Below, piece by piece: positions 20,223-20,538 of a stretch of 32,705 nt of DNA (position 1 is its first letter; every line of letters begins with the position of its first letter). Made by a program: the position numbers and the translations under genes. Source of the stretch: Candidatus Nanopelagicales bacterium (lineage in GTDB: Bacteria > Actinomycetota > Actinomycetes > S36-B12 > CAIYMF01); the NCBI GenBank assembly GCA_025456015.1, contig JALOLK010000025.1:1-32705 (forward strand), in the 5' to 3' direction. The notes below the pieces were generated by a model that ran no database searches, was not told where the DNA came from, and was given only the letters and a program-made list of their open reading frames with translations.

Positions 20223-20294
20223 GCCCCCGTAGCTCAGGGGATAGAGCGGTGCCCTCCGGAGGCATGCGCGCAGGTTCGAATCCTGCCGGGGGCA
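20223..20294 (+). tRNA. tRNA-Arg (anticodon CCG), no encoded CCA
   Basis: GCCCCCG/CGGGGGC acceptor, GCTC..GAGC D arm, GTGCC-CTCCGGA-GGCAT anticodon arm, GCAGG-TTCGAAT-CCTGC T arm. Confidence 0.95.
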
Positions 20295-20335
20295 CGTATG
20301 GGAACGGCCCCTTTCGAGGGGCCGTTCCCATACGT
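20294..20335. terminator. Perfect 18-bp hairpin (acgtatgggaacggcccc / ggggccgttcccatacgt), extendable to 19 bp around a TTCG loop; starts at the last tRNA base
   Basis: Inverted repeat read directly; no T-tract follows. Confidence 0.75.
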
Positions 20336-20397
20336 ACACCCAATGGCGGGATTCGGGAGGAGCCGCGCAACGCGCGGCGACGGGTCCTGCCGGGGGC

Positions 20398-20438
20398 ACG
20401 TATGGGAACGGCCCCCTCGTGGGGCCGTTCCCATACGT
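20398..20438. terminator. Second copy of the 18-bp hairpin with a different loop (ctcgt)
   Basis: Identical stem arms to 20294-20335, loop differs. Confidence 0.75.
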
Positions 20439-20538
20439 ACACCCGATGGCGGGATTCGGGAGGAGGCTCGCGCAGCGAGCCGACGGGTCCTGCCGGGGGC
20501 ACGCGCCCCGCTGTGGGGCTCGGTGCTGGGGCGGAGCC

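Follow-up and report, generated by a model that had tools for sequence, protein, structure and literature searches.

The closest described counterparts of the array analysed here are the RtT repeats of Escherichia coli, known since work on tyrT (Bosl and Kersten 1991, cited in PMC2965389 and PMC4986893). The only role suggested for them there is a proposed link with the stringent response. RtT RNAs were reported to be released from tRNA operon transcripts and were detected by Northern blot in Actinobacillus (PMC4986893), and a tandem GA motif was reported beside the closing helix of RtT RNA (Rivas 2020, PMC7657543). At E. coli loci that were chosen by hand and do not amount to a genome survey, the RtT copies (RF00391) following tyrT/tyrV, proK and serX each carry 19 nt of their own tRNA 3' end and score 46-137 bits against RF00391. 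The annotated RttR is 171 nt long, and its 3' terminus coincides with the copied CCA. At tyrV and serX, an inverse-complementary segment precedes the copy; at proK, no such segment of at least 7 nt was found in this place.

The window, i.e. the whole stretch of 32,705 nt that we analysed, is contig C27 of a draft genome of a Candidatus Nanopelagicales bacterium (G000; 2.7 Mb, 163 contigs, 78% complete). It harbours a tRNA-Arg(CCG) gene with argS, on the minus strand, on one side and a convergent M20 peptidase gene on the other. Like RtT, the array starts directly after a tRNA gene and carries the 3' end of that gene (Table 1). An initial sequence-only reading had concluded that no usual feature type explains this architecture; the E. 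coli RtT repeats, however, share its layout. The 16-nt end TCCTGCCGGGGGCACG is present at 20281-20296, 20385-20400 and 20488-20503, unit 1 being 20281-20384 (104 nt) and unit 2 being 20385-20487 (103 nt). Sequence and repeat search agree exactly with the coordinates first given for two units of ~104 bp and a third tRNA end, and the repeat search of the array detected a direct repeat of 92 nt (88% identity) and inverted repeats of 25 nt (92%). As first described, hairpin 1 has a perfect stem in unit 1 (C20295-G20334) and in unit 2 (C20399-G20437), and the short hairpin 2 is paired in both, with stem sequences that differ. The near-invariant linker was also correctly recognised, but the nature of its 5' part had been overlooked: this segment, GGCGGGATTCG, is inversely complementary to the host T-stem/T-loop CGAATCCTGCC, with one G.T pair. 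We call it anti-T. The folding of an RNA comprising the tRNA and the array has a z-score of -8.4 relative to dinucleotide shuffles. The hairpin gcccc-gctgt-ggggc (20505-20519), between the last tRNA-end copy and the stop codon of the convergent M20 peptidase gene, is real as reported, but it is short and not a feature of the family described below.

Table 1. Features of the tRNA-Arg(CCG) gene and of the array that follows it, in window coordinates.
Feature	Position	Strand	Basis or remark
tRNA-Arg(CCG), host gene	20223..20295	+	ARAGORN; Rfam RF00005, 63.8 bits, 20223-20294
tRNA 3' end from position 60 on, template of the copies	20281..20296	+	sequence
Unit 1 hairpin 1, perfect stem, terminator-like	20295..20334	+	similar hairpins follow element-less tRNAs
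Unit 1 anti-T segment GGCGGGATTCG	20345..20355	+	complements host T-loop and T-stem 3' strand; host covariation, 136 copies
Unit 1 GGAGGAG, conserved	20356..20362	+	
Unit 1 hairpin 2, CCGCGC-AAC-GCGCGG	20363..20377	+	variable sequence, pairing retained; covariation
Unit 1 CGACGG, conserved	20378..20383	+	
Spare tRNA 3' end no. 1 (positions 60-74)	20385..20399	+	sequence; extent family-wide
Unit 2 hairpin 1	20399..20437	+	
Unit 2 anti-T segment	20448..20458	+	host covariation
Unit 2 GGAGGAG, conserved	20459..20465	+	
Unit 2 hairpin 2, GCTCGC-GCA-GCGAGC	20466..20480	+	covariation
Unit 2 CGACGG, conserved	20481..20486	+	
Spare tRNA 3' end no. 2	20488..20502	+	sequence

A BLAST search with the unit retrieved a second copy in the same genome, downstream of tRNA-Ala(CGC), and an equivalent array after the matching tRNA-Arg of a sister species (G001), where the stem changes are compensatory. 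The regular architecture on the tRNA 3' end is thus not an artefact of this assembly; the presence of the family in many genomes, about half of the sampled set of the order, likewise rules this out. The motif TTCGGGAGGAG-N-CGACGG was found after other tRNAs in further families of the order. A covariance model (R1) trained on 15 copies, whose core comprises a T-stem-like helix, GGAGGAG, a variable hairpin and CGACGG, matched 86 of 168 genomes of the order (E <= 0.01), 38 of 396 genomes sampled class-wide (E <= 0.001) and 7 of 398 sampled phylum-wide (E <= 1e-4). Two of the phylum matches lie outside the class, after a serine-type tRNA (G756) and an initiator-Met-type tRNA (G819), both identified by eye; these cassettes carry their own CCA-containing tRNA ends in tandem. 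Matches in Sphingomonas (L215), Verrucomicrobiia (L275), Kofleriaceae (L245) and Bipolaricaulota (L234) scored with the model but have no upstream tRNA and were discarded as false positives.

The model yielded 165 distinct copies, 136 of which are located on the same strand downstream of a tRNA or tmRNA gene, typically with 46-60 nt between the tRNA and the first unit. The host genes encode Ala, Arg, Gly, His, Leu, Met, Pro, Ser and Thr tRNAs and tmRNA. Copies without an upstream host are mostly found at contig ends or after a 3' tRNA fragment resembling the far end of an integrated element. Across the family, units measure about 57-115 nt, and cassette-bearing cultured genera include Phycicoccus, Humibacillus, Pedococcus and Intrasporangium. 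No Rfam family matches the cassette, and we found no such actinobacterial family in the open-licence literature searched, a scope that makes this weak evidence of novelty.

We then compared each copy with its host gene. Host complementarity of the anti-T segment spans positions 56 to about 64 and includes the variable T-loop sites 57 and 59, at which anti-T is complementary to its own host in 128 and 126 of the 136 copies, respectively. The direct copy covers host positions 60-74 (15 nt) and then ends: its identity to the host is 0.86-0.91 over 60-68, about 0.7-0.86 up to 74 and 0.5 beyond. Over 60-74, identity is 0.844 for the own host but 0.539 for hosts with a different amino acid; in 106 of 132 cases, no other host matches better than the own one. 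Copies of the own end of at least 11 nt follow 87 of 105 tRNAs with a core, versus 13 of 82 without; some of the latter may have degenerate cassettes. Since the T-stem-like helix was part of the model training, its pairing is partly built in, whereas the host pairing of 56-59 and the association with tRNAs are outside the covariance model. We hold the existence of the family and its host matching with very high confidence. CGGGGGC, proposed as a decoy for the tRNA 5' GCCCCCG, may pair in this way, but a different complementarity, that of 20345-20355 with tRNA positions 56-64, is the strongest of those conserved.

The linker core is the most conserved part of the cassette, with nearly invariant GGAGGAG and CGACGG, so that the unit is neither confined to one assembly nor devoid of a conserved linker. 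Hairpin 2 shows strong covariation, and the outer helix varies in step too. Paired cells amount to 91.8% versus 67.4% after shuffling in the seed set, and to 88.5% versus 65.4% in the A3 alignment, which was fitted to the structure and biases these numbers towards it, although slid controls are nonetheless lower. The base following CGACGG is complementary to the opposite base in only 10 of 126 copies; complementarity is thus avoided at this site. As judged by sequence alone, GAG-[hairpin 2]-CGA would permit G.A/A.G pairs.

Hairpin 1, which adjoins the tRNA, is near-perfect in most copies, yet fast-diverging. It had been taken as part of the cassette proper, but cassette-free tRNAs of the same genome are followed by the same style of terminator hairpin, which rules out a cassette-specific hairpin 1. 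It is therefore best read as the ordinary tRNA terminator of this lineage, often duplicated with the tRNA end. This duplication and the convergent orientation of the downstream gene would suit an array that consists of nothing but tandem transcription terminators, as had been suggested. We nevertheless judge that explanation very improbable, because it leaves the invariant core, the covarying hairpin 2 and the host match of anti-T unexplained, and because not every unit is a terminator hairpin: compact tandem units with a period of 57-59 nt (L118, L121, L185, L198) are devoid of the long hairpin 1.

Together, the matched segments also make up the two arms of a large, imperfect palindrome with hairpin 1 at its centre. 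A neutral explanation is conceivable on this basis, in which template switching in the quasi-palindrome and recombination between direct copies keep the core matched to its host without any function. The near-perfection of the fast-diverging hairpin 1 and the different repeat numbers of close relatives are in line with such a process. However, it accounts neither for the near-invariance of GGAGGAG and CGACGG and the covariation of hairpin 2, nor for the avoided complementarity after CGACGG, nor for the occurrence of the same layout with a different core in E. coli, and we regard it as rather unlikely.

Another explanation invokes recombination at the DNA level. The T-arm and 3' end of the tRNA gene would be the attachment site of a recombinase, or of a casposase-like integrase generating 14-15 bp duplications, and the units would be non-autonomous insertions or scars shuffled as in integrons. 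Integration that targets tRNAs leaves direct copies of the tRNA 3' end behind, casposases do target such ends (PMC6614799), and the hosts include tmRNA, a classic integration target. In one genus, the arrays behind tRNA-Ser(GCT) have mixed hairpin-1 and hairpin-2 modules, and their unit order differs among species. On the other hand, integration would not supply the inverted segment, which takes part in the near-universal match to the own host, and the cassettes found after different tRNAs of one genome are not near-identical, unlike the products of recent transposition. No integrase was recognised among the six main genes flanking the window array (argS and those for the M20 peptidase, a BrkB-type protein, a PLP-dependent decarboxylase, a trypsin-like protease and an NAD(P)-disulphide oxidoreductase). 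The single unit of the G014 Arg array is an apparent hybrid of G006 units 1 and 3, which fits plain recombination between repeats; recombination or slippage between units suffices for such hybrids and reorderings. The att-like scars initially envisaged are not favoured, and we consider recombination as the origin of the cassettes unlikely.

Putative mobile sequences were observed at several loci. Foreign sequence at tRNA fragments in G014 and G006 (L101, L167) contains an ORF judged by eye to encode a putative DDE-type IS transposase; although this sequence had looked like an autonomous relative, we therefore treated it as an IS insertion and did not consider it further. The same IS-like end abuts tRNA-end fragments at position 61/62 (Pro, Thr) in L336 (G014:C11) and L167 (G006:C5), as if this element favoured cassettes. 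A flank of ~150 nt is shared by L364 and L365 (G006:C19, G008:C61). It lies directly after tRNA-Arg in G008, whereas in G006 and G014 the last spare tRNA end comes before it, so that spare ends may represent alternative integration sites. G006 and G008 were considered as an empty-site pair. Their shared flank resembles the end of an integrating element, but no integrase was recognised in the ORFs read, and we therefore did not use this pair as proof of insertion. In L137, L157, L143, L208, L242 and L175, cassettes follow 3' tRNA fragments starting around the anticodon loop, as expected at the far end of an integrated element; the old 3' half, once displaced, keeps its array.

Other repeats also occur at these loci. 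Several tRNA-Ser(GCT) loci (L147, L151, L152, L320-L335) contain an unrelated second repeat with nested palindromes, CCGATTGCGTGATCG...CGATCACTTGCAATCGG, located directly after GGGAG or after a tRNA-end copy in several species, and sometimes in place of hairpin 2. Yet another unit type, CCGATGCGG...CGCATCGG, present in L322, L324 and L331, likewise terminates in the copied tRNA-Ser end, CTCTCGTCTCCGC; these units are possibly a third class of tRNA-end repeat. At a contig end (L164, G006:C89), the tRNA-Gly end 'CCACCCGCTC' is found in short tandem copies ~16 nt apart, 3' of the cassette.

Our preferred reading is that the array consists of two actinobacterial RtT-like tRNA-trailer cassettes with an RNA-level role, a statement to which we assign as a whole a probability of roughly 0.5. 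The RtT-like layout and the host matching, taken alone, are highly probable; it is the RNA-level role that stands at about even odds, which we still prefer to scars of recombination and to neutral evolution of repeats. The tRNA-derived small RNA proposed at the outset survives in this form, as a putative tRNA-linked RNA. Each cassette comprises, in order, the tRNA, the terminator hairpin, the linker, anti-T, the GGAGGAG-hairpin-CGACGG core and the spare tRNA 3' end, and would act as an RNA produced by read-through past the terminator. Anti-T and the spare end would close a T-stem-like helix; the RtT-like domain so formed would have a tRNA-like end that enzymes of tRNA 3' processing could trim, as suggested by E. 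coli RttR ending at the copied CCA. Tandem units would result from ordinary repeat expansion and contraction. The terminator-like hairpin that separates the tRNA from the core argues against an RNA role, as read-through has to be assumed. Because many tRNAs have no cassette, and about half of the genomes of the order have none at all, the role of the cassettes is not essential.

Self-folding of the cassette alone would not require the host match at 57 and 59, since the spare copy lacks 56-59. Alternatively, anti-T might pair with the T-loop/T-stem of the host and thereby free the 5' strand of the tRNA for the spare end. Energy calculations predict the pairing of anti-T with the host (state B) to be more stable than that with the spare copy in 70 of 78 loci, a preference for which the longer complementarity is in large part responsible and which does not prove a switch. 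In a switch- or repair-like version, anti-T in the read-through transcript would displace the host's own T-stem/acceptor 3' strand and the spare copy would substitute for it, giving a tRNA or tmRNA two interchangeable 3' ends, with cassettes fitted to each host gene and a layout that arose separately in enterobacteria (RtT) and actinobacteria. We deem this version, which the energy calculations allow, quite unlikely.

With the RtT layout present in another phylum, at many tRNA identities and at tmRNA, what had been an oddity of a few operons becomes a design that recurs. With well over 100 copies, and cultured genera among the carriers, it can be tested which pairings matter.

In both RtT and the cassette, single or tandem units follow a tRNA and end in the tRNA's own 3' end from the edge of the T-loop on, a structured domain precedes the copy, and an inverse segment lies at the 5' side of this domain (for RtT, at tyrV and serX). 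As in the cassette, RtT at proK and serX has a terminator-like hairpin between the tRNA and the domain. The two differ in unit length (57-115 nt for the cassette versus 168-181 nt for RtT) and in their cores, GGAGGAG/CGACGG with one hairpin being specific to the cassette. In addition, anti-T matches host positions 56-64, reaching into the T-loop, whereas its RtT counterpart matches 59-68. Unlike RtT, the cassette has tmRNA among its hosts, and in genes that do not encode CCA its copy usually ends at position 74. RF00391 gave no match in the window at its gathering score, nor in 20 loci at E values up to 10; for this reason, we file the cassette as RtT-like in layout but not as a member of RF00391.

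The E. coli arg spacers (argV/Y/Z/Q) resemble the cassette in carrying 18-19 nt of their own 3' end ~115 nt downstream, preceded by an inverse segment (59-66); they give no Rfam RtT match at the gathering score and are associated with a single host tRNA only. The 3'ETS-leuZ sponge RNA of E. coli, annotated behind leuZ, similarly derives from a tRNA 3' trailer, but a copied tRNA 3' end was not detected downstream of leuZ. Casposons and other tRNA-targeting integration share with the cassette a tRNA 3' end duplicated at the insertion site (PMC6614799). Such a target-site duplication is present here; the 15-nt duplication of 60-74 alone does not separate integration from the RNA reading. In contrast to casposons, the cassette is only ~57-115 nt long and gene-free, with no adjoining integrase recognised, and its inverted segment is also host-matched. 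With integron cassette arrays, the likeness is limited to hairpin-bearing tandem units and changes in their order. We conclude with high confidence that the cassette represents a second RtT-like family, unrelated in sequence to RtT and with broader hosts.
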